18,808 nucleotides of DNA from Candidatus Cloacimonadota bacterium (lineage in GTDB: Bacteria; Cloacimonadota; Cloacimonadia; Cloacimonadales; WRIO01). A program made the translations under genes and the position numbers. Positions 1-16,049 of the stretch are shown here, piece after piece. The stretch is from the NCBI GenBank assembly GCA_023230175.1, contig JALNXV010000023.1:1-18808 (forward strand). The letters are read 5' to 3'. The notes beneath the pieces are model-generated. The model saw only the letters and a program-made list of their open reading frames with translations, made no database searches and was not told the DNA's origin. Every line of letters begins with the position of its first letter. Position 1 is the stretch's first letter.

Positions 1-3000
1 GTCCGGAAAGAATTACTCGAAGCAATTAACAGAGAAATAGAAACTTTTAAAGATCAACTTGACGATGTAACTTCTTTTGAACAAAAAACAGAAATATATG
101 ACCAAATGATACTTTTGTTAGAAAAGAAACAAAACCTACTTTTAGAAATTAGTAAAACTTTTGATTCAAATTTAAAACAAGCAGAAAATCATTTGCGGTC
201 TTATATTGGTAAGGGATTATCCGAATCTGATTTTAATAAAATTATATCTGGTTCCACTGACACTCTTGAAATTGATATAAAGAATGAAAAAATTGCAAAA
301 GCAATTGAAGATTTTAGAAAACTTAAAGATGAATCTAATGGTGTGAAAAAAGAAATTGGTGGTATTAATGATGAATTAAAAAATATTAAAACTCAAAAAT
401 TTGAATTAGTCATTACCACTAATAATGCCAAATACGAATCTTACAATGCACTAATAGAAAACTCAAACAATCTTCTTTCTAAACATCATGAACTCTCAAA
501 AGAATATACTAATGAATTAAATAAACAAGTTTCTATTACAAAACAAAAACAACAAGATGTTATTAAAGAAATAAATTATCATGATGAAATAATTAAAAAA
601 TTAAAAGCAAAAAAACAACTAACCGGAGAAGATAAATATATGATTTCTTTACATACCAATCGTCTTAAAGATTTAATTGGTGTGTATTGGGAACTTGAAC
701 GTGCAATAGATTCTAATAAAAAAGCATTAGAAGAAATAGATTTCAAAAAATTTGAAAATTCACTTTCCCAACTTGAACGTGCATTAGAACCTTTAAACAA
801 TAAAATATCAAATCTTAAATCTAATCTTGATTTATTATCAGATACTAATTTTGATGGTAAGATAAATATAATCACCCAACAAATGAGTGCTAATAAAGAT
901 TTGGTATCACAATTAGAAGAACAGCTTAGACAATTATTATTAACTACACCTAAAAATGCAAAAGAAGCACAAGCATTAGCGCAATCTATTAAAAATACAA
1001 AATCTGCATTATTCGCAGCAAGAAAAGAAACAATTTTATACGGTAAAGAATTAGGTAAACTTGCATTAGAAAAAATTAAATATGGTTTTGATAAAGTTAC
1101 TAATTCATTAGAACAACAAATGAATATCACAGAACATTTAATTGATATGATGATTGATGGTATTCCTACAGGAATTGATTTAAATTTTAAATATGCAACT
1201 GAAGTGGTTGATAATACTGGAATCGAAGACACTGAGAATCTTGCACAAGCAGGTATTAATATTCAAGAAGAATTTCAGATGGATTCTTTAGAATCTCAAC
1301 GTGATTATCAGCAACAAATGATTGATGAACAGCAAAAATATTTATCAGAACAAACACAACAATTCCAAAAATTCTTTGATGATTTCTTAAAAATGATTGC
1401 AGAAATAAATGGTGTACATATTTTTGATACTACTCTTAGTGATTTTGCTAGACTAAATGGTGCTTCTAAAGAAACAATTAAAACTCTTACTAATTTAGAA
1501 CGTAAAATTCAAGATTTAATGTATCAGAGATGGAAAAACTCTAAAGAGAATACTGGTAAAATAGTAGATGATAATAACGATGGTATTGATGATATTAAAC
1601 ATACATTAATTCAAGGTTATGAAGACAATCTTACTAATACGAAAAATTATTTTAATGAACTAATAAGTTTGTACGGTACTAACTGGAATAATATTATAAA
1701 TATAGCTCAAACAAAAGCATCTGAATTATCAAAAGTAACTCCTGCAATTTCAAGTAGTATAAGTAGTACAAGTAGTACAAGTAGTAATAATTCTAATAAC
1801 ACTCGGAGTGAATTTATATTAACTCTTCCAAATGGAGCAACATGGGTTCCTGAAGCTGGTGGATATGTATTAGATAATAAGGTTATTTCTACAATTCCTC
1901 AATACAAAAAATATGCTAAAGGAACTAAAGGTCACCCTGGTGGAAGTGCAATTATATCTGAAGAAGGAAATGAATTATTAATATTCCCAAATGGACAAAT
2001 AAGTATATCTGGTAATAAAGGTGCAGAATTTATTTCAGATTTACCAAAAGGCACTCAAGTAATTCCTCATAAAGAAACAGAAGATATTCTTAATAATCGT
2101 AGTTATGCTAAAGGTACGCCTTTATATAATCAATGGCTTAATAAAGCAAGACAAGATGGAAGTGCATATTTTTGGATTCAAGAAGTTACTAATCCAGAAG
2201 AAGGATATACTTCTTGGCATAATGGAGAACAAATAACTAATATAGTAGGAGATAAAGAATATTATTGGGCTGATACCGAAGAATATATAGGTAATACTCG
2301 TCCTACATTACAGCAATCTCAAAAACATTGGATACAACAAGATGCTTTTGCTTTTAAATATAATAATGTCTGGTATTGGACAGATGATTTAAGTTTTGTA
2401 GCGGGAATCAAGAACCTAATGGATGATGATTTAATTAATTCTCATATGCATAATATGGCATATGACAAAGCAAAATCTCAAAATTCTCCTTATTACATGT
2501 ATTATAAAAATGGAAAACCTCAATATCATTTTACATCTGACAAGTCTTATTATGGAGATGGCGAACCTGACAATCAACAAATAATTAATCATTTAAGTCA
2601 ATCAAATAATTTACCAAATATAAATGAAGTTAATAATAAATATAATGATTTAATTATTTCTAATTATCAAAATGTATCTAGTTTACGAAATAAAGTTGTT
2701 GATTTAAATAATATTTCAAAAATGCAAGCAGGTCAAACATATACTGATGTTTCTGGTTTAGAAGTAACATTAACTCAAGATATGATAACTCAAGCATCCA
2801 AAGATGCTATTGAAGCTACTAATCAATTAATTAGTGCAGAAAATAAATTAAAACAAACTATTAAAAGTAAATATGATTTTAAATTTAACGCAATGGAAAA
2901 AGAAAATAATGGTTATAGTGATACTCTAAAATTAATAGATGATATTGAACATGAACTTAATATGAAAAATGAATCTGATTACGAAGGTCAATTAAATACA

Positions 3001-4683
3001 ACAAAACAATTGAAAGAACAAAATGAGTTACAAGAAACTATTCTTACTAATTTAATTAATAGATTAAAAACTGAGCGAAATGGGTTTAGTGAAAATTCTT
3101 ATGAATATCAAATTTTAACCGAACAAATTGATATATGGGTTGAATCTTTAGAAGATGTTCAAGAAAAAATCAATGGTATAAATAATAGTATTACTAATTT
3201 GTATAAAAATATTATTCAAAAAGGTGTTTCTGTTTTTGACGAACAATTAGATGATATTGATTTTGTTGGTTCATTGATTGATGAAAAAGACATAGATACT
3301 AAAATGGCAAATATATCACAAAAAATTAATGTTACTTTAGGTAAAATTAATTATTTGCAAGATAAAATTATTGAAACTAGAAATAATACTTCTTTGTCAT
3401 ATGAACAACAAACTGAAATTATTAAAGATTTTACAGAGCAGTTAGAAGACGCTGTTACTAGTGCTTATGATTTATCTAAATCTTTAAAACAACTTGGTTA
3501 TGATAAAATTGCTGGAGATATTGAAAAAGTTAAGAAAATTTCAGATGAATATTATGAAAATCAAATAAAATATTTAGATGATGTTTTAGAAAAAAATAAT
3601 GAAATTATTGATGCCAAATTAAAGGAATTAGATAAAATCGAAGATGCTGAAGATTATCAAGAACAATTAAAAAAATTGCAAAAAGAACGTAATGACATTC
3701 AAAAAGAAATTGATAAACTTCAGGGAGATACTAGCTTTTATGCTTCTTCTAAACGAAATGAATTACAAAAAAAATTATCAGAAAAAGAAGATGAAATTAC
3801 AAAGTTTAACAAAAATCGAACTAGAGATTTAAGAAAGAAAAATTTAGAAGAACAACGAGATAATTTTAGTAAAGATGTCAATGCTCAAAAAGAACAATTA
3901 AATATTTTAAAAGATTTAGAAGATGAAAAATGGGAAAAAATTATTGAAGCATTAGAAAATGGCACTTTAACTTTCGATGGTTTAATGGATACTTGGTTTA
4001 AAGGTACAATTACTAAATTAACTACTTTTAATAGTGATACTAGTTCGATTATTCAAAGTATAACATCTGCTTTTGAAGCATTAGGGGATTTTAGCATTCC
4101 CTTACCACAATTAAGTGATCTTTTTCCTGGCGAATCTTATATAACAAGATTATATGAAGCTGAAACAGACATGTTAATAGATATTCAAAAAGATTTATGG
4201 ATTAAAGCAAATGAAATCGGTGACAAAGCAGGTATGGAAGCAGCACATCAAGAAGCTGAAAGAATAAGAAAACTTAGGGGTAGAGAACCAGGTGGAGCAG
4301 ATGGTTCGTTAGATACTAAATATAGAGGTAAATATAGTCCAATACGGGTTTCTTTTGATACAGGAGGTTACACAAAGGATTCAGAAGGTATAGCATATTT
4401 AGATGAAAAAGAATTAGTATTAAATCAAGAACAAACAAATGCTATGTTAAAGATTAAAGACTATTTACCTGATATTGCTTCTTTCTTAAAAAATAAGAGA
4501 TCATTAATAGACAGTTTTAAATTTAACAATACTTTTATTCCTTCATTTGCGGGAGTTGGAGATATGTCTAATACAACTAATAATTATCTAACTATAAATG
4601 TTGATAAAATTGAAGGAGGAAAGGTAGGAGCAGATTTATTGTTTACAGAATTAAACAGAGGTTTGAAAAGATTAGGAAGATAA
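1..4683 (+). CDS. Phage tail tape measure protein, 3' part (5' end outside window)
   Basis: The frame is open from base 1, so the start lies upstream; the visible part is 1560 codons ending TAA TAA. Tape measure proteins fill the tail tube, set its length and are expelled at DNA injection. Most of the protein is heptad-like Lys/Glu/Gln/Asn-rich coiled coil (about 1-1500 and 2800-3950). The middle has a diagnostic signature: YAKGTKGHPGG at 1912-1944, then SEEGNELLIFPNG and DLPKGTQVIP, as in many Gram-positive phage tape measure proteins. The C-terminus has the matching FDTGGYT...LDEKELVLNQEQTNAML segment (about 4350-4445). A Trp/Tyr-rich, apparently globular stretch lies at about 2120-2430. 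A short calcium-loop-like motif, DDNNDGIDD, is at 1567-1593. No membrane segment or lysozyme/peptidase domain is visible in this part. The position just before Dit supports the call. At roughly 0.15 nm per residue (general rule), the tail would exceed about 230 nm. Confidence 0.93.
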   Translation, partial: VRKELLEAINREIETFKDQLDDVTSFEQKTEIYDQMILLLEKKQNLLLEISKTFDSNLKQAENHLRSYIGKGLSESDFNKIISGSTDTLEIDIKNEKIAKAIEDFRKLKDESNGVKKEIGGINDELKNIKTQKFELVITTNNAKYESYNALIENSNNLLSKHHELSKEYTNELNKQVSITKQKQQDVIKEINYHDEIIKKLKAKKQLTGEDKYMISLHTNRLKDLIGVYWELERAIDSNKKALEEIDFKKFENSLSQLERALEPLNNKISNLKSNLDLLSDTNFDGKINIITQQMSANKDLVSQLEEQLRQLLLTTPKNAKEAQALAQSIKNTKSALFAARKETILYGKELGKLALEKIKYGFDKVTNSLEQQMNITEHLIDMMIDGIPTGIDLNFKYATEVVDNTGIEDTENLAQAGINIQEEFQMDSLESQRDYQQQMIDEQQKYLSEQTQQFQKFFDDFLKMIAEINGVHIFDTTLSDFARLNGASKETIKTLTNLERKIQDLMYQRWKNSKENTGKIVDDNNDGIDDIKHTLIQGYEDNLTNTKNYFNELISLYGTNWNNIINIAQTKASELSKVTPAISSSISSTSSTSSNNSNNTRSEFILTLPNGATWVPEAGGYVLDNKVISTIPQYKKYAKGTKGHPGGSAIISEEGNELLIFPNGQISISGNKGAEFISDLPKGTQVIPHKETEDILNNRSYAKGTPLYNQWLNKARQDGSAYFWIQEVTNPEEGYTSWHNGEQITNIVGDKEYYWADTEEYIGNTRPTLQQSQKHWIQQDAFAFKYNNVWYWTDDLSFVAGIKNLMDDDLINSHMHNMAYDKAKSQNSPYYMYYKNGKPQYHFTSDKSYYGDGEPDNQQIINHLSQSNNLPNINEVNNKYNDLIISNYQNVSSLRNKVVDLNNISKMQAGQTYTDVSGLEVTLTQDMITQASKDAIEATNQLISAENKLKQTIKSKYDFKFNAMEKENNGYSDTLKLIDDIEHELNMKNESDYEGQLNTTKQLKEQNELQETILTNLINRLKTERNGFSENSYEYQILTEQIDIWVESLEDVQEKINGINNSITNLYKNIIQKGVSVFDEQLDDIDFVGSLIDEKDIDTKMANISQKINVTLGKINYLQDKIIETRNNTSLSYEQQTEIIKDFTEQLEDAVTSAYDLSKSLKQLGYDKIAGDIEKVKKISDEYYENQIKYLDDVLEKNNEIIDAKLKELDKIEDAEDYQEQLKKLQKERNDIQKEIDKLQGDTSFYASSKRNELQKKLSEKEDEITKFNKNRTRDLRKKNLEEQRDNFSKDVNAQKEQLNILKDLEDEKWEKIIEALENGTLTFDGLMDTWFKGTITKLTTFNSDTSSIIQSITSAFEALGDFSIPLPQLSDLFPGESYITRLYEAETDMLIDIQKDLWIKANEIGDKAGMEAAHQEAERIRKLRGREPGGADGSLDTKYRGKYSPIRVSFDTGGYTKDSEGIAYLDEKELVLNQEQTNAMLKIKDYLPDIASFLKNKRSLIDSFKFNNTFIPSFAGVGDMSNTTNNYLTINVDKIEGGKVGADLLFTELNRGLKRLGR
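1752..1787 (+). repeat. 9-bp tandem repeat (four units) encoding a Ser/Thr linker
   Basis: Four in-register copies of aagtagta[t/c/a] (1752-1760, 1761-1769, 1770-1778, 1779-1787) give a Ser-Ser-X linker in the tape measure protein. It separates the N-terminal coiled coil from the HPGG-signature domain. Each unit is three codons, so copy-number changes would keep the frame. Confidence 0.85.
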
Positions 4684-4697
4684 TAAAAATGGGTATT

Positions 4698-4729
4698 AGT
4701 AGGGGTATTATTCCCCCTACTTCTTTTTT
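4698..4729 (+). terminator. Hairpin with T-tract between tape measure and Dit genes
   Basis: The stem agtagggg (4698-4705) pairs perfectly with cccctact (4714-4721) around an 8-nt loop, and a T-rich run continues to 4729. This has the form of a Rho-independent terminator or attenuator. It lies just after the tape measure double stop (4681-4686) and ends beside the Shine-Dalgarno sequence of the Dit gene, with no promoter in between. Partial read-through is therefore expected. It could instead be an RNA-processing or stability hairpin. Confidence 0.75.
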
Positions 4730-4730
4730 A

Positions 4731-4737
4731 AGGGGTG
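4731..4737 (+). promoter_or_regulatory. Ribosome binding site that decides the Dit start
   Basis: AGGGGTG lies 8 nt upstream of TTG 4746 and, with A4730, is a good anti-16S match. The in-frame ATG at 4689 has no Shine-Dalgarno match close upstream, and its first codons would lie within the terminator-like hairpin, so the TTG is preferred. Confidence 0.7.
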
Positions 4738-4745
4738 TTTTTAAT

Positions 4746-5513
4746 TTGATTAGAGATTCTTTGTATTTTATTTACAATGGTATTACTTCTGAAGATAAAA
4801 ATATTGTTAATGTCAATATAGATAGCGGGATAGCAGAAGAATCTTTTTTTGCTTCAAAAACAATAATAAAAACTAAAACTAGAAATAAAAGTTATTTTCA
4901 AAGGATAAAATCAGATAGTTTATCTTTTAAAGTAAATTTTGCTTTTAAAAATGGGTTTACTGAAGAAACTTTATCTGATATTAAAAGATGGTTATGGCAG
5001 GATTATTATAAACCTTTGATATTTAATGAAAATTTAAATAGAATTTATTATGCTATTGTAACAAGTGATTCAAACATTTTACATAATTATAATAATCAAG
5101 GATATATAACTTTAAATTTTGAAACAAATGCAGATCATGCTTGGAGTCCAGTTTATACTTCAGAAATATATAATTTAGATTCTAATACCACTAATGGCAC
5201 AAATATCACATTTATTAATAATGGTGATTTAACTATATGTCCTGAACTTTCAATAATAAAAACGGTTGAAAATGGAGATGTCACAATAATAAATTCTACA
5301 AATGGTGGGTTAGAATTTAAAATTACCAATATTATTAAAAATGAAGATTTATATATAAACAACGAAAGAGAAGAAATTATATCTAATTTACCTAATACAT
5401 ATAGATATGATGATTTTAATAACAATTGGATGGAATGTGTAAGAGGAATTAATAATTTAAAAGTATATGGTAAATGTAGATTACAAATAAAATGGCAATG
5501 TAAATTGCTATAA
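4746..5513 (+). CDS. Distal tail protein (Dit-like, siphovirus tail component family)
   Basis: 255 residues from TTG 4746 (M-I-RDSLYFIYNGITSED). Dit hexamers form the ring joining the tail tube to the baseplate hub. The family look is clear: the N-terminus runs RDSxYFxYNGI, then NVNIDSG, then AEESFFASKTI, followed by a region with RWLWQDYYKPL (around 4984-5020). A C-terminal galectin-like half ends in a strand around LKVYGKCRLQI. The common N-terminal pattern begins with a short Met-(R/I)-DS, which supports TTG over the longer ATG 4689 frame; the extra 19 residues of that frame are encoded by a hairpin. The gene sits between tape measure and hub/Tal, the canonical Dit position. Family assignment is secure; the exact start is inferred. 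Confidence 0.88.
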   Translation: MIRDSLYFIYNGITSEDKNIVNVNIDSGIAEESFFASKTIIKTKTRNKSYFQRIKSDSLSFKVNFAFKNGFTEETLSDIKRWLWQDYYKPLIFNENLNRIYYAIVTSDSNILHNYNNQGYITLNFETNADHAWSPVYTSEIYNLDSNTTNGTNITFINNGDLTICPELSIIKTVENGDVTIINSTNGGLEFKITNIIKNEDLYINNEREEIISNLPNTYRYDDFNNNWMECVRGINNLKVYGKCRLQIKWQCKLL

Positions 5514-5531: not shown

Positions 5532-8500
5532 TTGTTTAAAAATATAGATTTATTAAAACCTTTAATTAAACCAAAATATTTTATAGCTAAACCTAATAAA
5601 CAAATTATTGGTGTTTTGAAAGATGTTTATGATGATTCTACTTTTATTGATATAGGAAAAATAAATGAACTTTCTTTTAAAATCCCTGTTTATATAGAAA
5701 ATCAAAATCATGAATTAATACTAAATCCTAATCTTCAATTTATAAAAATTAAATTTCTTATAAAATATGTTTGGGGTAATTATGTAGAATGGTTTATTAT
5801 TGATAATATTCAAAATAGTTCTAATGAAGATGAAGATGTAAAGGAAGTAATTTGCTATTCACTTCCCTATGAACTAAACAATAAAAAAATAGATTATAAT
5901 ACAAATGAATCTGGATCACAAACTCCAGAACAAGTTTTAAATTCAATTTTAACAAAAACTTTGTGGACAGTTGATTATATAAATCCACAAATCAATAATT
6001 CAAAAAGGACTTTTAATATAACAAAAAAAGGTATAGTAGATTTTATAATAAACGATTTTGTCAAAGAATTTAATTGTATACCTATTTTTAATACAGAAAA
6101 TAGAAAGATATCATTGTTTATAAAAGATGAAATAGGGATGAATCGTGGTTTAAAATTTTCTTATAATAAATATTTACAAAAATTAAATCATAAAAAAGAA
6201 TTGCAAAATTTTTGTACGCATTTGAATATATGGGGGAATAATGATTTATCAATAGAAAATATAAATCCTACTGGTGAGCGATTTATATTTGATTATTCTG
6301 CTTTTTTATATCCTTATGAGGAAGATGAATCTAGTAATGTAATTAATCATAGTGATTATATGAGTGATGGTTTAGCAAGCAAGATATTAGATTATGTTAG
6401 TTTATTAGATTCTAAAAAAGGTGTTAAACAAATTACTGAATTAGGCACAAATTCTACTACTTTAAAATTAACTGCTCATGGATTAGTTACGGGAGATTGG
6501 ATTTATAACAAAACTTATGATGAATCAAGAAAAGTAACTGTTGTAGATAATAATAGTGTTACAGTAGATAGTATAAAAAATCAAGCAAGTAATAATGAAA
6601 TATATAAATTTAAAAACGGTACTTTTAGAAAATTATATTATCAAAGAGAAGAAAAACAAGATGAATTAGATAATAAGAATATTGAACTATTTATCTTGAA
6701 TGATGAAAAAAATCAAATATTAGACACTATTGGTATCCAACAGGAAAATCAAGATTATTATAATTATTTAATTAATTATAATAATTCAAATGTAACAAAA
6801 ACTGCAATATTACATAGTAATTTATATTATGCTGTAATGTGTAAAACTTCATCTATAAATAATATTACTATTGAAATAGATGGAAATGTCAAAAATTTAA
6901 CTACAGATTGGACGGTAATAGATAAATTATCTTCAAAAACATCTGCTACTATTGAATGTAGTGGTGCTGGTAGTGCGGATATAAATATAATTATTGTTAA
7001 TATAACTGCCAATGAATATGCTAATTATACTGATGTTCAATTAATCAATAAATATAATATATATAACAAACAAAATGAAATTGCTATTAAACAAGATGAA
7101 ATTAAATTTATTGAAATTGATATTAATAATATTGAAACACAAAAAACTACTTTAAGAAATGAAATATCTAGAGATGAATTTTTTACACAAGAACAATTAA
7201 ACGAATTAATCCCTTATATAATTGAAGATAATTGGAGTTGTGAATTATCTAATGAAATAGAATTATATGAAGCAGGATTAAATGAATTTGCTAAAAAAAA
7301 TGATATAAAAGATATTATTAATATAAATATAATTAATTTTTTAGAATGTGTAGAAGCACAACATGATTGGGATAAATTAAATATAGGTGATATTGTTGAA
7401 ATTGAACATGAAATTTTTCAATTAAATTATACTGCACATATATCTGGAATAAAACCTAATCATGAAACTGGTGATATAGACATTATTTTATCTAATTTTG
7501 ATAAAATATTAAATGATAAAGATAAATATCTTCAAGATTTATATAATTCTATAGAAACAACAGATAATTTAGATAAAAATAAAATTAATTGGGATTCTGT
7601 TGCGACTAATTTTAATAATCGTAATGATAGAGTAACTGTCATCCCAGCAAATCCTGTGATTTTATCTGATGGAACTGCTATTGATCATACTTTAAATGCA
7701 GATGGTAGTTGTGATATATCCTTTGAATGGCAATTTAATCCTGAAAATAAAAATGTAGATGAATTCCTCGAATATAATATTGATGGTTTTATAGTATACG
7801 TTCATTCATTGGATCAAGAAAGCCCTTTTATTTTTGGTTCAACAATTACTAAAGACATACCATATAATGTTTCTTTATATAAACGTTCTTATATTTTATA
7901 TGGTGTCCCTGTTGATAGATATTATACTTTTGGTATTCAAGCATATCGCAAAGTTGACAAAGATATTGATTTAAAAGGAGTTTTATATTCAGATATAGTT
8001 CAATGTACTAGAACAGAAGAAAATCCTTATCATCCTGCTGATGCTCCTGTTTTTGAAGGGTATATTGGAGATACAATTGCTTCTGAAGTTGTAGATAAAG
8101 CATTGAATAGTGTTCAAATAGATGAATTTGCTCCTACTTTGGATACTCCAACTTTAACTCAAATGAACAATGGGAGTATTAAATTATCTATACCTAAACC
8201 AGAGGCAGAAGATTTAAATGGATTCAATATTTGGAGAACTACTTCTCCAGAGTCAAATCCAGATAATGCTGTGATTATTAATAATATAATTACTACATAT
8301 ACTTCATGTCCTGCTAATTATGAATATATTGATGAAACAGTAGAAAATATGGGATATTACTATTATTGGGTTTCTGCTTTTGATTTACAAGGAAATGAAA
8401 GTGGTAAGGTTGCGGGAAATCCTAATCCTATTCAATCATTAGATAGTATTAAACCCCTCTCCCCTACTGATTTTAGTGCTATTGGTGGCTGGGGAAGAAT

Positions 8501-11500
8501 TGACTTATCTTGGAACGAAGCAGCAAGAACTAAAGATATTTTAAAATATAAGATTTTAATTAGTGATACTAGTAATTTTGCTAGTTTTACTACTGTTTAT
8601 TCATTTGATACTAAATACGTTGATTTTGGAAGAATAACTACTGCAACTAGATATTATAGAATATATTCTGTTGATAAAGCAGGAAATGAAAGCATAAATT
8701 ATTTATCTGGTTCAAGTGCGGCAAAACTTGCTTCTGATGGTACTGCTCCTAATGTTCCAGTTAAGATAGGTACTGGATATACTTTAGATGATAATGGTGG
8801 TATTATCCTTTCATTTACTGGTTCTAATTCTGATGATGCACAAAGTTATAAAATTGTTAGACATATATGTACTGGTTCATCTCGTCAAGACGATGATGGT
8901 GGAAATTTAATTGAATTAATAAAACATTTAGGTAATATTACTCATAATTATACTGATAGTAAATTATTATTAAGTAAATATTATTATTATAGTATTTATT
9001 GTATTGATAATTCGGGAATGGTTTCTACAGCATTAGAGATTCCTTCTACTGGTGCTGTATCTGCAATTGATATTACTCCTCCATCTGCTCCTGTGATTAA
9101 TTTTGATGAAGAAAAGATTGGTGCTATCACTATTGGTTGGAGTAAACCAAGTGGAAACCCAATAAAATATCGAATTTATCAGTATGATGAAAATGGTGCG
9201 AATGAAGTAGAATTAGGTATTACTTCTGCTTTAACATTTACAGATTTTACAATGTCAACTGGAACTGCTACAAAACATAAATATAAAATTACTGCTATTG
9301 ATAGTTGGGATAATGAGAGTAATAAATCTGCATTATATCCTGCTAGTGGATATTTATTGTCTTTAACTCCTTGGACAGCAGATGATTCTCATGCTCCATC
9401 TTCAACAGGATATGCTTTTACAGGTAGTAGTCAATCAGATGGCAGTATAGATTTAGTTTGGAGTGGTTTTACTGATACTGAGTCAGGTATTGGTGGATTT
9501 AATATTTGGAGATGTTTGACAAATGATTCCGCTACAGCAATCTTAGTAGGTGTAATTTCAACTGATACTAAACATGAATTTATAGATTATAATACTATTC
9601 ATAATACTAATTATTATTATTGGATTTCTTGTTTTGACAATGCTGGAAATGAAACAAGTGATTTACCTTTAACTTCTGTTCAAAAATATATAACTGCTAC
9701 AAATACTCAAAAACCTACTACTCCTGCAAGTATTACTGCTGTTGGTAGAACAGGTAGAATAGATATTAGTTGGACTAATAGTACAAGTAATGATGTAGTT
9801 AGTTATATAATTGAAAAATCAATTAATAATGGTTCTAGTTATTCAGTTTTAACTACAATAAACACTAATTCATATACTGATTATAATATTAATGAAACAA
9901 AAGCAAATATTACAGCTAATTGGAAATATAGGGTTAAATCAGTAGATATTATTGGATTACAATCTGAAAGTTATATAACTACTTCTTCAATAAATCTTGA
10001 TTCTTATGTTCCTTCAAGTGGGTCTATCCCTTCTGCTCCTAGTATTTCAACTACTACAAGTGAATATGATGGAAGTATTACTTTAACATTAACTGCAAGT
10101 TCATCTACAGATGTTGAAAAATATAGGATTTATAGAAGTGAAAATAATAGTAATTATATAAATATAACAGAAATAAGCAGTGGAACATTAACTTATAAAG
10201 ATACTGGATTAAAAAATGGTCAATCTTACTGGTATAAAGTTTCTGCTGTTTCTTATACAGGAATTGAAAGTTCTTTATCTACCAAATATCCCAATGATTC
10301 AAATGGTAAAAAAGCAACTGATAGTACTGCTCCTAGCCCTCCTTCTGATTTAGTGGTTATTGGTGATTTAGGTGCATTTAATTTAATTTGGACAGAAGTT
10401 AATGAAAAAAATTGTATTTATGAAATTTATAGATCGAAATCAGGAAATTGGAGTGATATAGAAAAAATTGCTTCCGTGGCAGGTTCAGTAGATGAGTTAG
10501 GAATAATAAAACGTGGAACATATACCGATTATACTCCCCCTATATCCAACCAAGTTGTTTGGCATTATAAAATAAAGGTTGCTGATGCTTGGGGTAATTT
10601 AAGTGAATTTAGTAATGAAGATTCTGCATCATCTGTAATTAATTTCAACGGGGATATAAATGGTGTTCCTGCTTTTAATATTGGTGACAACATTGCTCCT
10701 GTTCAAAATGTTGATGATCCTGCTATTACATTATTAAATTTAATTAATAATTATATTCAAATTACATGGAATCCTTTTTATGATGAACAAAGTGGAATTG
10801 CCGGATATAATATTTGGAGATATACAGATGATCAAAATGTTAATGACAGAGTTTTAATAGGTACTACTGGTAGCATTAACAATACTAAATTTATAGATAA
10901 TAATACTGCACATAATACAGTATATTTTTATTGGGTTACTGCTTATGATGCTTCTGGTAATGAATCTGGATTTCCTGGAGATGAAGGAATTATTGGGAAT
11001 TGGACTTCAATAAAAGCAGAAAATAAGTTAATTCCACAAACACCCACAAATTTAATTGCTATAGGATATAATGGAGTAATAAATATATCTTGGAATATAA
11101 TAGATAATAATGATGTTGTTGTATATGAAATTCAAAAAACAGAAGATTGTACTGCAAATATTGTAAAATGGCATTGTTTAGAAAATTATCTTGTAACTAG
11201 TTATATAATTGATATGGCAGTAGCAGGAGTAATACCTATTAATAATGTTTATGATTTAAATAAAGATGGTAAGATTGATGATTTTGATATTTTAATTTGT
11301 GACAACCATGGTGGTTATATGACAATTCCTAATGAAGATATTGAATATTCTTATTCTAATACTAATTTTTATTCTGAATATAATGTTGTCTCTAAAAAAT
11401 CAGAAATTTTTAATTGGAGATACAGAGTTAGAGCAGTTAATTCTGTAGGTAATTGTTCTGAATGGTGTACATTAAATGTAATGCCCAATTTGCTTAATTA

Positions 11501-13733
11501 TCATCCTGGCAATGGTTATTTACCAGGCACACCCAATAAACCAATAGTAACTCCCTTATATGACGGTACTATAAAAATACAATGGGAAGAACCATTTTCT
11601 TATGATAATTCTATTCAATATTATTTGATTTATAGAAGAGAATATGTTAATGAAGAAAATATTAATTCAGGAAATGCGGGATTTGGAAACGAAGGATTTG
11701 GAAATACAGGATATTCAGTAAGTAAAGCTATTTGTATTGCTAAAGTAGCAAAACCATTATTAGAATATATTGATACATATTTAGAAAAAAATAAACAGTA
11801 TCAATATTCAGTTGCAGCAGTAGAATCAGATGGTAATATGAGTAATAGAAGTTTAGATTCTGATCCTATATATGCTACAGATTTAATTGCTCCAAATGTA
11901 AGTAATTTGAATTTAACTGCAACTGGTGATTTTGGTGCTATTAAATTAACTTGGAATGAAGTTGAAGGTGAAAATGGAGAAACATATGAAATATGGAGGT
12001 CGGAAACAGAAACAGGAGAATATTCTAAAATTGCTACTGTAGCAGGTTCTACAAATAATACTCAATCACAAAATAGTTATATAGATTATGATCCTCCTTC
12101 AAATATTGCTACGACTTATTGGTATAAAATAAAAGCAGTTGATAATTGGGGCAATCATTTAAAAGAAGATGGAGTTGAAAATTTTACAAATGCAATTAGT
12201 GGAGTTTCATTAAATAACTATGATGCTGGCATTGTTGTATCTTCTGCAACTTTTATAATTGGTATTGAAGGGCAACATAAAACAGCAGACTATTATGTTC
12301 CTGCGGGAAGTACGAGTGCGGAAGTTGTGATTAATCAGGTTATTGAGAGTTTACCTAGTAATGTTATTGAACATGATTTTGCTACTGGCGGGGGAAATAA
12401 TACAATAACCTTGTCTGCTAATTCTAATTCATTAAATATATATAAAGCTTTTCAAATTTCTATTATAAGTGGAACAGGAGTAGGACAAACTAAAACAATT
12501 ATAGATTATGACATTTCTACTAGGATTGCTACGGTTGATTCTAATTGGAGCACAAATCCTACTAATAATTCTGAATATGAAATTAAAGTTACATCGGGGA
12601 AAATAATATTATTAGAAGGAAGTTATTGGGTTAGTAATGCTATTTATTTAACGTCTTATACTACCTTAGAAGGACAAGGTAATAATACTGTTATAATAGT
12701 ACATTCTGATTTTACAGATACAGATATTGGAGTTATATCTAATATTAAATATAATTCATTATTTGAAGATTGTTATGATATTGGCATATCAATTAATAAT
12801 TTAAAAATTGATGGAAATACTAATTTTTATCGTTCAAATTTAAAAGGTATTAAATTAGGATATACGTTAAATAGTATTATTAATAATTGTACTATAGTAA
12901 ATTTTAAAGGTTCAAGAGGAATTATGTTGAGATATTGGAGTAATAATAATATAGTTTCAAATTGCACTATAATGAATAATGCTACTGGTATTTATTTAGC
13001 AAGTTATTCAGCTAATAATATAATTCGCAATAATTATATATGTAAAAATATAAATGGAATTAGATTATATTTTGGTGTAAATAATAATGTTATAGATAAT
13101 AATATTGTAATACAAAATACTTATTATGGAATATCAACAAGTAATAATTGTAATATTAATAATATCATAAACAATAATATTTGTTTTAATCAGAGAAATG
13201 GAATAAATTTAGATAATTGTAATAGTGCAATTATAACAAACAATTATATTGAAGGTAATGGTTCAATTGTACCTGCTTCTTCGAGTTATTATAATATTAT
13301 AATTAGCAATTATAGTTCAAACAACAATATTCAAAATAATAAAATATATAAAGGGTTATATGTAATAAATTCTGGAACTGCTACTGCTGGAACATCTACT
13401 TCTATTACATTGCCATCTACTGCATCTTCCACAAATGATTATTATAATTATAAATATATTTATATTACGGGGGGGCAAGGGGCTGGACAAAGTAGATTAA
13501 TTACTGATTATGTGGGCAGTTCAAGAGTAGTTACAGTTTCAGCTTGGAGTACTATTCCTAATAATACTTCTATATATGAAATTAGAAGTTATCCGCAATA
13601 TGGTATTTACATTGTAGATTCTAATTGTGCTGATAATTTTGTTGTGAATAATGATTTGCTTAATTCTGGAGAAGAAAATGGATTGCAAGATGGTTCAATC
13701 TCAACAGTAACTACCGCTGGAAATAGGAGTTGA
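5532..13733 (+). CDS. Giant baseplate hub/Tal - Fn3 array - beta-helix receptor-binding tail protein
   Basis: 2733 residues from TTG 5532, with AAGGGAGGT at 5517-5525. Residues 1-300 and about 549-704 resemble the phage minor structural protein/Tal hub (gp27-like): the motif AQHDWDKLNIGDIVEIEH is a typical hub segment. Two extra domains are nested in the hub: AHGLVTGDW (about 302-356) and a beta-rich block (about 420-493), set between coiled coils. An atypical Fn3-like domain (about 704-860) precedes 12 clear Fn3 domains starting near residues 867, 974, 1071, 1181, 1287, 1393, 1497, 1599, 1721, 1834, 1997 and 2119. Residues 2244-2733 are a pectate-lyase-type right-handed beta-helix: TLEGQG cap, NosD-like runs such as NNIIRNNYI, and a VVNNDLLNSG...TTAGNR ending. 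Two 'GxGQ' modules are inserted in it. A dockerin/EF-like loop (D1908, N1910, D1912, G1913, I1915, D1919) sits inside one Fn3 domain. It probably caps the tail as a trimer and binds the host glycan or surface. No catalytic residues could be assigned. Confidence 0.9.
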   Translation: MFKNIDLLKPLIKPKYFIAKPNKQIIGVLKDVYDDSTFIDIGKINELSFKIPVYIENQNHELILNPNLQFIKIKFLIKYVWGNYVEWFIIDNIQNSSNEDEDVKEVICYSLPYELNNKKIDYNTNESGSQTPEQVLNSILTKTLWTVDYINPQINNSKRTFNITKKGIVDFIINDFVKEFNCIPIFNTENRKISLFIKDEIGMNRGLKFSYNKYLQKLNHKKELQNFCTHLNIWGNNDLSIENINPTGERFIFDYSAFLYPYEEDESSNVINHSDYMSDGLASKILDYVSLLDSKKGVKQITELGTNSTTLKLTAHGLVTGDWIYNKTYDESRKVTVVDNNSVTVDSIKNQASNNEIYKFKNGTFRKLYYQREEKQDELDNKNIELFILNDEKNQILDTIGIQQENQDYYNYLINYNNSNVTKTAILHSNLYYAVMCKTSSINNITIEIDGNVKNLTTDWTVIDKLSSKTSATIECSGAGSADINIIIVNITANEYANYTDVQLINKYNIYNKQNEIAIKQDEIKFIEIDINNIETQKTTLRNEISRDEFFTQEQLNELIPYIIEDNWSCELSNEIELYEAGLNEFAKKNDIKDIININIINFLECVEAQHDWDKLNIGDIVEIEHEIFQLNYTAHISGIKPNHETGDIDIILSNFDKILNDKDKYLQDLYNSIETTDNLDKNKINWDSVATNFNNRNDRVTVIPANPVILSDGTAIDHTLNADGSCDISFEWQFNPENKNVDEFLEYNIDGFIVYVHSLDQESPFIFGSTITKDIPYNVSLYKRSYILYGVPVDRYYTFGIQAYRKVDKDIDLKGVLYSDIVQCTRTEENPYHPADAPVFEGYIGDTIASEVVDKALNSVQIDEFAPTLDTPTLTQMNNGSIKLSIPKPEAEDLNGFNIWRTTSPESNPDNAVIINNIITTYTSCPANYEYIDETVENMGYYYYWVSAFDLQGNESGKVAGNPNPIQSLDSIKPLSPTDFSAIGGWGRIDLSWNEAARTKDILKYKILISDTSNFASFTTVYSFDTKYVDFGRITTATRYYRIYSVDKAGNESINYLSGSSAAKLASDGTAPNVPVKIGTGYTLDDNGGIILSFTGSNSDDAQSYKIVRHICTGSSRQDDDGGNLIELIKHLGNITHNYTDSKLLLSKYYYYSIYCIDNSGMVSTALEIPSTGAVSAIDITPPSAPVINFDEEKIGAITIGWSKPSGNPIKYRIYQYDENGANEVELGITSALTFTDFTMSTGTATKHKYKITAIDSWDNESNKSALYPASGYLLSLTPWTADDSHAPSSTGYAFTGSSQSDGSIDLVWSGFTDTESGIGGFNIWRCLTNDSATAILVGVISTDTKHEFIDYNTIHNTNYYYWISCFDNAGNETSDLPLTSVQKYITATNTQKPTTPASITAVGRTGRIDISWTNSTSNDVVSYIIEKSINNGSSYSVLTTINTNSYTDYNINETKANITANWKYRVKSVDIIGLQSESYITTSSINLDSYVPSSGSIPSAPSISTTTSEYDGSITLTLTASSSTDVEKYRIYRSENNSNYINITEISSGTLTYKDTGLKNGQSYWYKVSAVSYTGIESSLSTKYPNDSNGKKATDSTAPSPPSDLVVIGDLGAFNLIWTEVNEKNCIYEIYRSKSGNWSDIEKIASVAGSVDELGIIKRGTYTDYTPPISNQVVWHYKIKVADAWGNLSEFSNEDSASSVINFNGDINGVPAFNIGDNIAPVQNVDDPAITLLNLINNYIQITWNPFYDEQSGIAGYNIWRYTDDQNVNDRVLIGTTGSINNTKFIDNNTAHNTVYFYWVTAYDASGNESGFPGDEGIIGNWTSIKAENKLIPQTPTNLIAIGYNGVINISWNIIDNNDVVVYEIQKTEDCTANIVKWHCLENYLVTSYIIDMAVAGVIPINNVYDLNKDGKIDDFDILICDNHGGYMTIPNEDIEYSYSNTNFYSEYNVVSKKSEIFNWRYRVRAVNSVGNCSEWCTLNVMPNLLNYHPGNGYLPGTPNKPIVTPLYDGTIKIQWEEPFSYDNSIQYYLIYRREYVNEENINSGNAGFGNEGFGNTGYSVSKAICIAKVAKPLLEYIDTYLEKNKQYQYSVAAVESDGNMSNRSLDSDPIYATDLIAPNVSNLNLTATGDFGAIKLTWNEVEGENGETYEIWRSETETGEYSKIATVAGSTNNTQSQNSYIDYDPPSNIATTYWYKIKAVDNWGNHLKEDGVENFTNAISGVSLNNYDAGIVVSSATFIIGIEGQHKTADYYVPAGSTSAEVVINQVIESLPSNVIEHDFATGGGNNTITLSANSNSLNIYKAFQISIISGTGVGQTKTIIDYDISTRIATVDSNWSTNPTNNSEYEIKVTSGKIILLEGSYWVSNAIYLTSYTTLEGQGNNTVIIVHSDFTDTDIGVISNIKYNSLFEDCYDIGISINNLKIDGNTNFYRSNLKGIKLGYTLNSIINNCTIVNFKGSRGIMLRYWSNNNIVSNCTIMNNATGIYLASYSANNIIRNNYICKNINGIRLYFGVNNNVIDNNIVIQNTYYGISTSNNCNINNIINNNICFNQRNGINLDNCNSAIITNNYIEGNGSIVPASSSYYNIIISNYSSNNNIQNNKIYKGLYVINSGTATAGTSTSITLPSTASSTNDYYNYKYIYITGGQGAGQSRLITDYVGSSRVVTVSAWSTIPNNTSIYEIRSYPQYGIYIVDSNCADNFVVNNDLLNSGEENGLQDGSISTVTTAGNRS
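8130..9389 (+). repeat. Fn3 super-repeat unit 1 (four domains A-B-C-D)
   Basis: Residues 867-1286 of the hub-fibre protein. Type A carries GFNIWR at 897-902 and a YYYWVSAFDxxGNES end. Type B has an AIGGWGRIDLSW start. Type C has DDNGGIILSF. Type D has IGAITIGW and ends AIDSWDN (W1259). The same domain order recurs twice downstream, so the array appears to have grown by four-domain blocks. Confidence 0.8.
9390..10691 (+). repeat. Fn3 super-repeat unit 2 (four domains A-B-C-D)
   Basis: Residues 1287-1720. Type A has GFNIWR from 1322 with YYYWISCFDNAGNE. Type B has AVGRTGRIDISW. Type C has YDGSITLTL. Type D has LGAFNLIW, IASVAGS and VADAWGN (W1687). The A-to-A offset from unit 1 is 425 residues. 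Confidence 0.8.
10692..12230 (+). repeat. Fn3 super-repeat unit 3 (four domains A-B-C-D, with insertions)
   Basis: Residues 1721 to about 2233. Type A has GYNIWR from 1758 with FYWVTAYDASGNES. Type B has AIGYNGVINISW but is enlarged by a calcium-loop-bearing insertion. Type C has YDGTIKIQW plus a Gly-rich loop. Type D has FGAIKLTW, IATVAGS and AVDNWGN (W2206). Its D domain is especially close to that of unit 2. The right boundary is approximate. Confidence 0.78.
11670..11714 (+). repeat. 15-bp tandem repeat encoding GNAGF-GNEGF-GNTGY
   Basis: Three in-frame 15-bp units (11670-11684, 11685-11699, 11700-11714) encode a glycine-rich pentapeptide repeat at residues 2047-2061. It lies within the C-type Fn3 domain of the third super-repeat, where units 1 and 2 have no such loop. 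It probably forms an exposed loop; a binding role is speculative. Confidence 0.8.
12360..12590 (+). repeat. Inserted 'GxGQ' beta-module, copy 1
   Basis: Residues 2277-2353. Its pattern is TITLxxxxN, then SGTGVGQTKTIIDYD, then RIATVDSNW, ending YEIKV. It sits between the ESLPS and GKIILLEG segments, which are normally adjacent in pectate-lyase-type beta-helix caps, so it looks like a domain inserted into the helix N-cap. Copy 2 is at 13371-13589. Function unknown. Confidence 0.75.
13371..13589 (+). repeat. Inserted 'GxGQ' beta-module, copy 2
   Basis: Residues 2614-2686. It shows the same pattern as copy 1: TSITLPS, then GGQGAGQSRLITDY, then RVVTVSAWS, ending YEIRS. It interrupts the distal beta-helix rungs, which resume with YGIYIVDSN. 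It contains a run of seven G at 13469-13475, unusual in this AT-rich sequence. Confidence 0.75.
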
Positions 13734-14435: not shown

Positions 14436-14459
14436 TAGAAATAAAAAGGGGTGGTTTTA

Positions 14460-16049
14460 ATGAAGTATTTAAAAAAACAAATAGTATTTTTTCTAATTAT
14501 ATCTTTTATTTGTTTCTTTAATTGTAATACTGTTTTTGCTTCAGAAAATAATGATCGTGGGGCTTGTTATGGAATAAGTTCTGTAAAAGATATTAATGGA
14601 AATGATTTATTATATGGAAAAATTATAGCATATGTTCAAACTGATAAAATTGCTACTTATTTCATAGAAAATGGTAAGGATTTTCATATCGAGCCAGGAT
14701 ATTATCCATTGATTATTCCTTATAATTTAGAAGATATTAATAAGGAAATTAAATTTTTTGTAGAAATTGATGATATTTCTATTGAGGCCATTCCTGATTT
14801 TCAAGTTATACTTGATAATAATCATCAAGATGAAACTTTTGGAACATTAATCAATCTAACAGTTTCCAATTTACCTTCATTAATAACAAGTTTTGATATA
14901 GAATATAATAATCAAATATTATCAGATGATATTATTACAGTTAATAAAGGAGATTTAAATAATATTTGTATTAAAGTATATGGTGATTATTCTAATGGAG
15001 ATAGAAAAGAAATTACTAATAAATGTGAGTATAGTGGTAATGGAGATGTAATTAAATTAGTAGATTTTGGTGAATTTAAATTTTTAAAATGGGAGAATAA
15101 CGATATAAATGTGTCTTATGGTAATTTAAAAAAGAAATTATCGTTTAATATTATTGATAATCCTCCTACCCTATTTACTTCATCGCTCACGGATAATGCA
15201 ACAGATATATCAATCAATAATACTTTTACTTTTCATTTCGATAAATCAATTTCACAAGGTAATAATTTTGGTTCTATATCTTTACTTAATTCTGATGGAG
15301 TTCCTGTAGGGATTACAAAAACAGTATCAAGTGATACTTTAATAATCAAACCAATAATAGATTTAAAATATGACTCAAGTTATATTTTATCAATTCCTTC
15401 AAATTCAATTAAAAATTTAGGTACTATGGGGAATACTGAAAATATACTTTATCATTTTACTACTATCTCCGAAGTTCCTATTGATACAATAGCAAAATCA
15501 ATTTCAGTTGAAAGTTCAGGAGGAATTGATACAGTAGAAATTATTCCAAATGTACACACTTATACTTTTACATTACCGGAAGGAACAACAATTAGTCCAA
15601 CAATTTCTGTTGATACAGGTAATAATCAAGCAACAGTAGTAATTCCTCCTATATCAATAATTCCTGGGTCTGTTGAAATAACAATTAGATCAAAAGATGG
15701 CACTAAGGTTGAAAAATATATTATTAATATTGAGTTAGGAAATAATGACCAATGTTTTATAGCAACAGCCGCTTATGGTAGTTTATTAGAACCACACGTT
15801 CAAGTTTTACGTAAATTTAGAGACAATATATTGATGCAATTTAATGTAGGTAGATGGTTTGTAAAGAATTATTATCATTATTCCCCTCCTATTGCTAATA
15901 TAATCGCAAATAATGAAGTATTAAAATTTGTGGTTAGGATGATTTTAACACCTATTATTTTTAGCATTGAGTATTGGAAGGGGTTATTAATTAGTTTAAT
16001 AGGGGTGGGTATTGTAATAGGATGGAGAAGAAAAATTGTATTAAATTAA
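14460..16049 (+). CDS. Secreted, membrane-anchored Ig-like protein with CFI-box C-terminal domain (moron candidate)
   Basis: 529 residues from ATG 14460 (AAGGGGTGG five bases upstream; the in-frame GTG 14451 overlaps that site). Residues 1-27 are a signal peptide: KK, a hydrophobic core, and V-F-A before S28. A novel N-terminal region of about 200 residues follows. Residues 233-338 resemble an SbsA/Big_5 Ig-like domain (DNPPTLFTSS, NNTFTFHFDKSI, a YHFTT end). Residues 341-428 resemble a cadherin-like beta-sandwich (SISVESSGG, TYTFTLPEGTTISPTISV, VEKYIINIEL). The CFI-box starts at C432 (CFIATAAYGS) and continues PHVQVLRKFRD, YYHYSPPIA and LKFVVRMILTP, matching the conserved family pattern. Two hydrophobic segments and a terminal WRRK suggest a membrane anchor with the chain displayed outside the host. 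CFI-box function is unknown. With its own promoter and terminator inside a tail operon, it looks like a moron: a lysogen surface protein or possibly an exclusion factor. The virion-protein alternative is less likely because of the signal peptide. Confidence 0.88.
   Translation: MKYLKKQIVFFLIISFICFFNCNTVFASENNDRGACYGISSVKDINGNDLLYGKIIAYVQTDKIATYFIENGKDFHIEPGYYPLIIPYNLEDINKEIKFFVEIDDISIEAIPDFQVILDNNHQDETFGTLINLTVSNLPSLITSFDIEYNNQILSDDIITVNKGDLNNICIKVYGDYSNGDRKEITNKCEYSGNGDVIKLVDFGEFKFLKWENNDINVSYGNLKKKLSFNIIDNPPTLFTSSLTDNATDISINNTFTFHFDKSISQGNNFGSISLLNSDGVPVGITKTVSSDTLIIKPIIDLKYDSSYILSIPSNSIKNLGTMGNTENILYHFTTISEVPIDTIAKSISVESSGGIDTVEIIPNVHTYTFTLPEGTTISPTISVDTGNNQATVVIPPISIIPGSVEITIRSKDGTKVEKYIINIELGNNDQCFIATAAYGSLLEPHVQVLRKFRDNILMQFNVGRWFVKNYYHYSPPIANIIANNEVLKFVVRMILTPIIFSIEYWKGLLISLIGVGIVIGWRRKIVLN

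Follow-up and report, generated by a model that had tools for sequence, protein, structure and literature searches.

Known systems and the locus under study

The closest described counterpart of the protein considered here is the YomG minor tail protein of SPbeta-like phages (YOMG_N, DUF7359, phrog_6211). A gene for such a protein lies at positions 5532..13733 of an 18,808-nucleotide stretch of DNA (hereafter the window; contig JALNXV010000023.1 of assembly GCA_023230175.1, from a Candidatus Cloacimonadota bacterium). This 18.8-kb piece of a phage tail region runs from a tape measure gene through the gene for the distal tail protein (Dit) to the YomG-like gene. The N-terminal hub, DUF7359 and the gene place after tape measure and Dit are the same as in the SPbeta-like system; the difference is a long array of fibronectin type III (Fn3) domains. 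The encoded protein is laid out as hub, DUF7359, Fn3 stalk (residues 867-2235) and a probable beta-helix tip, and SPbeta-type phage records, among the best 40 of 69 matching phage records, align to it only inside residues 18-910. None of these 40 listed matches covers 80% or more of the window protein. With fair confidence, the comparisons below can be read to mean that the stalk stands between the tail hub and a swappable beta-helix tip and that its length varies by class-preserving unequal recombination; as part of that reading, and held no more firmly, the product would be the central tail-tip protein of an SPbeta-like siphophage.

A fixed-order super-repeat of distinct domains is also found in the A-band of titin, where immunoglobulin-like (Ig) and Fn3 domains form 7- and 11-domain units, according to an excerpt of the source (PMC7427331). 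In the window array, as in titin, domains at the same position of different blocks are more alike than neighbouring domains. The array differs from titin in belonging to a phage protein, in consisting of Fn3 domains only, in its period of four domains and in a block number that varies between near-identical genes. Periscope proteins of bacterial surfaces show the same variation of repeat number in a stalk bearing a binding tip, again according to an excerpt (PMC8201768). Here too repeat number differs between close relatives, with 3, 5 and 7 blocks in proteins whose residues 1-1598 are identical. Unlike in periscope proteins, the module here comprises eight diverged domains and belongs to a phage tail. 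Tandem repeats of periscope genes are highly alike in DNA, whereas the DNA of the window array contains no exact direct repeat of 16 nt or more; periscope proteins are anchored on the bacterial cell surface, whereas the window gene lies in a phage tail gene context. The main text of the periscope paper (PMC8201768) has no word beginning with 'phage'. Fn3 domains near hub domains of the tail tip have likewise been described in lambda gpJ and T5 pb3, which have three and two of them respectively in the excerpted part of the source (PMC10721106), compared with 12 in the window and up to 28 in one relative, arranged as a super-repeat. No report of such a phage array was found in the open-access literature searched, which is weak evidence of absence, most subscription papers lying outside that scope. 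To our knowledge, no phage array of this layout has been described.

A fixed order of four domain classes

The window stalk consists of 12 Fn3 domains in the order ABCDABCDABCD, as the first-pass annotation of this DNA had proposed. Each of the 12 domains has its best-scoring partner in its own class, and the period-4 (lag-4) signal ranked first of 576. The blocks, with the types assigned to them below, are as follows.

8130..9389, + strand: block 1, type I (A1 8130-8450, B1 8451-8741, C1 8742-9071, D1 9072-9389)
9390..10691, + strand: block 2, type II (A2 9390-9707, B2 9708-10019, C2 10020-10325, D2 10326-10691)
10692..12236, + strand: block 3, type II' (A3 10692-11030, B3 11031-11519, C3 11520-11885, D3 11886-12236)

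Relatives were collected by three protein searches and two collection scans, which gave at least 13 distinct proteins with the array; the protein searches scored the 7,977-7,990 candidates sharing most words, and the number of relatives is a lower bound. Of the best 80 viral loci, the class models were applied to L001 and L002; L003-L080, with best segments 21-43% identical and far shorter matches, were left out. P0001 is the window's own protein; L001, P0042 and P0043 were counted as one relative, L081 is equivalent to P0004, and duplicates were removed from the step counts. Class models A-D were built from the window domains alone, and the window fits its own models by construction. With two matches of 10-11 bits put aside, all 13 distinct relatives show the ABCD order under these models, and 119 of 121 adjacent domain steps in the window and the 13 relatives followed it, both exceptions involving 10-11-bit matches. 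The relatives carry 1 to 7 blocks: seven in P0002, five in P0003, two in P0004, P0005, P0006, P0043, L002, P0044 and P0045, and one in P0047 and P0049. P0046 (ABCDA) and P0048 (ABCD) stop inside a domain and may be cut, and L002 stops at a contig end.

No ABCD run occurred in 82 control proteins holding 920 parsed domains, in which the best class score was 50 bits. Convergence among unrelated Fn3 domains is hardly credible as the source of the lag-4 likeness. Short motifs are common among Fn3 domains and the tree of the 12 domains is weak, but the first rank of 576 and the order test in relatives and controls together refute it. There is at most a hint of an older pair level, with A like C and B like D: A and C join at 97/93, but between-class mean scores are 48-65, AC being the highest.

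A scan of viral contigs with P0001 alone as query yielded no relative, and a tblastn search with the stalk array alone against 50,697 phage records gave nothing at E<=1e-5. P0004 sits on a 149-kb contig of a Clostridium sp. metagenome-assembled genome (MAG); among 68 genomes of its genus, the block was strong (E 2e-163) only in P0004's own genome and weak in 20 others (E 1e-9 or worse). The phage host is probably Clostridium, or clostridia in the wider sense.

Fold of the stalk domains

The assignment to Fn3 is based on matches of single blocks, on structure prediction and on profile matches in the PDB, because the Pfam fn3 model (PF00041) found no match at E<=1 on the whole window protein. 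In single blocks of the window and of three relatives' loci, PF00041 matched six of nine at E<=0.01; window block 1 scored 19.9 bits, under the cut-off of 25. A block profile searched against the PDB matched PTP-delta and fibronectin chains (best E 3e-6; fibronectin chains E 2e-5), and a PDB search with an alignment of five whole proteins gave no match. The AlphaFold (AF2) model of block 1 (mean pLDDT 87.7) has four beta-sandwich domains in tandem, of the seven-strand kind that characterizes fibronectin type III, and its top Foldseek match is 3t1w, a four-domain fibronectin fragment (E 5e-16).

Two ancient block types

Type I and type II separate at 100/100 in a tree built from joined blocks (414 columns; 25 rows, of which 19 are different). 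Type I comprises the first block of each of eight proteins and three inner blocks. The make-up is I-II-II' in the window, I-II-I-II-II' in P0003, I-II-I-II-I-II-II' in P0002 and I-II in the five two-block proteins of the tree. Window block 3 (type II') groups with the last block of P0004 at 100/100. Per domain, window block 1 shares 47-61% identity with block 1 of P0004, the Clostridium MAG protein, as against 21-34% with blocks 2 and 3 of its own array, and it is closer to block 1 of L001, too, than to these. Because the types split at 100/100 across eight proteins and block 1 is closer to its counterparts in the relatives, the four-domain duplication is placed before the divergence of these phages. 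Judged from the sequences, this 1.3-kb duplication is ancient.

The first-pass annotation had instead pictured the array as growing by duplication of a block of about 1.3 kb within this gene, the last copy then diverging at the tip. The ABCD x3 layout and the position of the largest insertions in the last block agree with such a history. Against it stand the block tree, in which types I and II are common to eight proteins and which largely refutes it, the nearness of block 1 to that of P0004 and L001, the eight-domain size of the recent steps described below (about 2.55 kb), and a Gly-containing loop at the C3 position in P0004 and P0006 as well. A history of this kind is now very improbable: the super-repeat is real, and the age of the duplication, the size of the recent unit and the origin given for all the insertions have to be revised.

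P0047 combines A, B and C of type I with D of type II, and P0049 is a lone type-II block. In P0006, L001 and P0044, the second B falls among the B domains of type I, as in a single-domain exchange between blocks. By their domain assignments, P0047, P0049 and these second-B mosaics are further class-keeping changes. In P0047 (residues 1000-1289), a piece of ~150 residues is inserted within the D domain of the one-block array.

Recent length steps of eight domains

In protein comparison, P0001, P0002 and P0003 are identical over residues 1-1598. After residue 1598, P0001 resumes as P0003 852 residues further on, in frame and with a 14-residue overlap at the C/D border.

10284..10325, + strand: recombination junction, residues 1585-1598 (14 residues common to both P0003 copies)

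Block 2 of the window is chimeric, A2-B2-C2 being P0003 block 2 and D2 being P0003 block 4. P0002 equals P0003 with 848 residues doubled, bar two single-residue differences, with a 10-residue overlap inside a B domain; at the protein level it holds an exact repeat of 858 residues. P0003 blocks 2 and 4, in which both crossovers fall, share 75-81% identity in classes A-C and 50% in D. From these alignments, the unit recently gained or lost is the eight-domain I-II module of about 2.55 kb, not four domains. The window looks as if it arose by deletion from a P0003-like form, and P0002 as if by duplication. With its blocks 1 and 3 just 30-77% identical, P0003 itself is unlikely to have come from P0001 by a fresh duplication. 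It would be simpler if the window had arisen from a P0003-like form by loss of a module and P0002 by gain of one, and from this we infer the direction.

It is improbable that the difference of 3, 5 and 7 blocks is an assembly artefact in which one true array was collapsed or expanded. Mis-joins classically arise at repeats, the contigs bearing the three proteins measure 18.8, 19.2 and 23.9 kb, and the longer two alleles are known as protein sequences. The overlaps of 14 and 10 residues at the junctions have differing neighbours, however, and correspond to at most ~46 and ~34 nt of identical DNA, reckoned from protein. Final word sizes usual in short-read assemblers are longer than this, which makes a mis-join unlikely. 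In addition, the first junction of the 858-residue exact repeat of P0002 is a clean hybrid of two diverged copies, and the window differs from P0003 by a few block 3 residues and by the tip, which is more than the same sequence collapsed.

As a mechanism, we propose that domains of the same class in different modules recombine homologously but unequally, which would drop or add whole eight-domain I-II modules in frame and preserve the ABCD order. The window would then be a three-block allele derived from a P0003-like five-block form minus one module, P0002 would be a seven-block allele with one module gained, and the tip would be exchanged separately from the stalk. SPbeta-like temperate phages are expected to carry a recombinase gene of the PF07508 type, and such a gene is present on the P0004 contig and the L001 record.

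Linkers and inserted loops

Between and within the domains, four short segments of the window protein were delimited.

8049..8129, + strand: linker before block 1, beginning VFEGYIGD (likeness to the 10638-10691 linker judged by eye)
10638..10691, + strand: linker after D of the type-II block, INFNGDINGVPAFNIGDN (from the sequence)
11253..11288, + strand: EF-hand/dockerin-like loop DLNKDGKIDDFD inside B3 (Dockerin_1 matched only at E 0.085, on P0002)
11664..11714, + strand: Gly/Asn-rich loop inside C3 (tandem 15-nt unit at 11670-11712)

A Gly-containing linker between a type-II D and the next A occurs at 6 of 19 D-to-A junctions, every one of them in P0001-P0003 and with two distinct sequences overall, and at none of 13 type I-to-II junctions. 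Because this linker follows type-II D and never type-I D, the natural module is taken to be eight domains. The linker from DUF7359 to the first A resembles that after type-II D, as though similar linkers marked both ends of the eight-domain module; the linker pattern caught 2 of 14 linkers ahead of the first A, and the likeness of those in P0001, P0004, P0005 and P0045 was judged by eye.

The B3 loop may bind calcium, to go by its motif. By eye, this single, inserted loop is present in P0001-P0003 and lacks a counterpart in P0004, P0005 and P0006, whereas P0004 and P0006 also have, in their last C domain, a Gly-containing loop where C3 has its own. Not all insertions of the last block are late divergence at the tip.

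The tip

The C-terminal end of the protein is most likely a right-handed beta-helix, as judged from profile, model and Foldseek evidence.

12291..13730, + strand: C-terminal tip, most likely a right-handed beta-helix

TIGR03804 scored 19.0 bits on the window tip, just under its cut-off of 19.45, and the P0004 tip, 40% identical to it, passes Pfam Beta_helix with 44.8 bits (cut-off 25.9). Foldseek matched the weak tip model with modest scores to AlgE6 (alginate epimerases) and to the Dettilon and Sf6 tailspikes. Although block 3 is nearly identical, the window tip diverges from the P0002/P0003 tip from about residue 2264, with 2 to 16 of 30 residues identical per stretch. Over its whole length, the window tip is no nearer to one than to the other of the P0004 and P0002/P0003 tips, or nearly so, the two comparisons giving 195 identical of 450 and 199 identical of 497. 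A segment of ~65 residues (TITL...Y..I.I..G.G.GQ...ITDY...R..TV...WST.P.N.S.YEI) seemingly occurs twice, by eye, at 12396-12580 and 13395-13610.

Function of the stalk

A role as tail-tip stalk is proposed because of the domain order hub, stalk, beta-helix: the N-terminal hub (YOMG_N, DUF7359) would be followed by the Fn3 stalk, and this by a beta-helix tip touching the host surface. The stalk would most likely set the distance over which the tip can reach out from the tail, to a receptor lying below surface layers or past them. Titin domains measure ~4 nm each in the excerpted source (PMC7427331); with this figure, the stalk would, if extended, change stepwise by ~32 nm per eight domains. A mainly adhesive array, in which many Fn3 domains weakly bind cell-wall glycans and length change is a by-product, is unlikely, if the least so of the alternatives considered. 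Ig-like domains of phage tails have been proposed as weak carbohydrate binders (excerpt of PMC10721106). The possible calcium loop in B3 would also fit adhesion, but the location between hub and beta-helix tip and the class order kept at ~40% identity suit a stalk with fixed neighbour contacts.

Several points weigh against a length-variable stalk of the kind proposed. P0002 and P0003 were compared as proteins only, giving no direct view of length variation within one population, and the three records searched, two of them fragments, yielded no annealase of the RecT or ERF kind. The weakest domains of the relatives (~30-40 bits) overlap the best control score, and the claim is therefore carried by domain order and not by score alone. 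Because most domains are common to the window, P0002 and P0003, the latter two are not independent tests of the order; since the window itself fits by construction, independent support comes from the other 11 relatives. Class D is not a single clade in domain trees. The block tree drew tool warnings about long branches and the odd composition of P0005 block 2, and the types are not clean per domain, A of P0005 block 1 and A of P0003 block 3 grouping with type-II A domains. In the structural models, the pTM of 0.57 for block 1 and its best whole-PDB-chain TM-score of 0.25 leave inter-domain angles weakly constrained, and the tip model is weak (mean pLDDT 57.7, the core being better). The reach function is a prediction from architecture.

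Gene context

The YomG-like gene and its neighbours carry the following features, both YOMG_N and DUF7359 scoring above their curated cut-offs.

1..4683, + strand: tape measure protein, C-terminal part, open at the window start (phrog_4211, E 9e-48)
4689..5513, + strand: distal tail protein Dit (phrog_33, E 1e-20; DUF6558_C, E 2e-12)
5532..13733, + strand: YomG-like tail protein, 2733 aa, TTG start (open reading frame call; phrog_6211 minor tail protein, E 6e-134)
5583..5855, + strand: YOMG_N domain, residues 18-108 (Pfam, 88.3 bits, cut-off 27)
7608..7991, + strand: DUF7359, residues 693-820, directly ahead of the stalk (151.5 bits, cut-off 27.5)

Another gene, lying among those of the tail region at 14451-16049, encodes a protein with a Big_5 Ig-like domain, whose C-terminal CFIATAAYGS motif precedes a hydrophobic end. 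This protein is 45% identical over 518 columns to the product of the gene at the matching place in L081 (19097-20707), and the gene is therefore regarded as kept in both phages.

Biological meaning

Titin is the best-known case of Fn3-type super-repeats, as bacterial surface proteins are of length-variable stalks; this phage tail protein joins both. A stepwise adjustable receptor reach is a tentative extension, possible but on balance doubtful. The population would keep 3-, 5- and 7-block alleles (12, 20 and 28 Fn3 domains), and unequal recombination would convert these into one another in units of the eight-domain module; class matching would keep the products in frame and in phase, and the array would act as a homology track for swaps of the beta-helix tip. 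With alleles in exact module steps, the proteins offer a natural series of 1, 2, 3, 5 and 7 blocks for asking whether tail-tip reach is selected. The same series also bears on how a long repeat array alters its copy number yet keeps its internal order.
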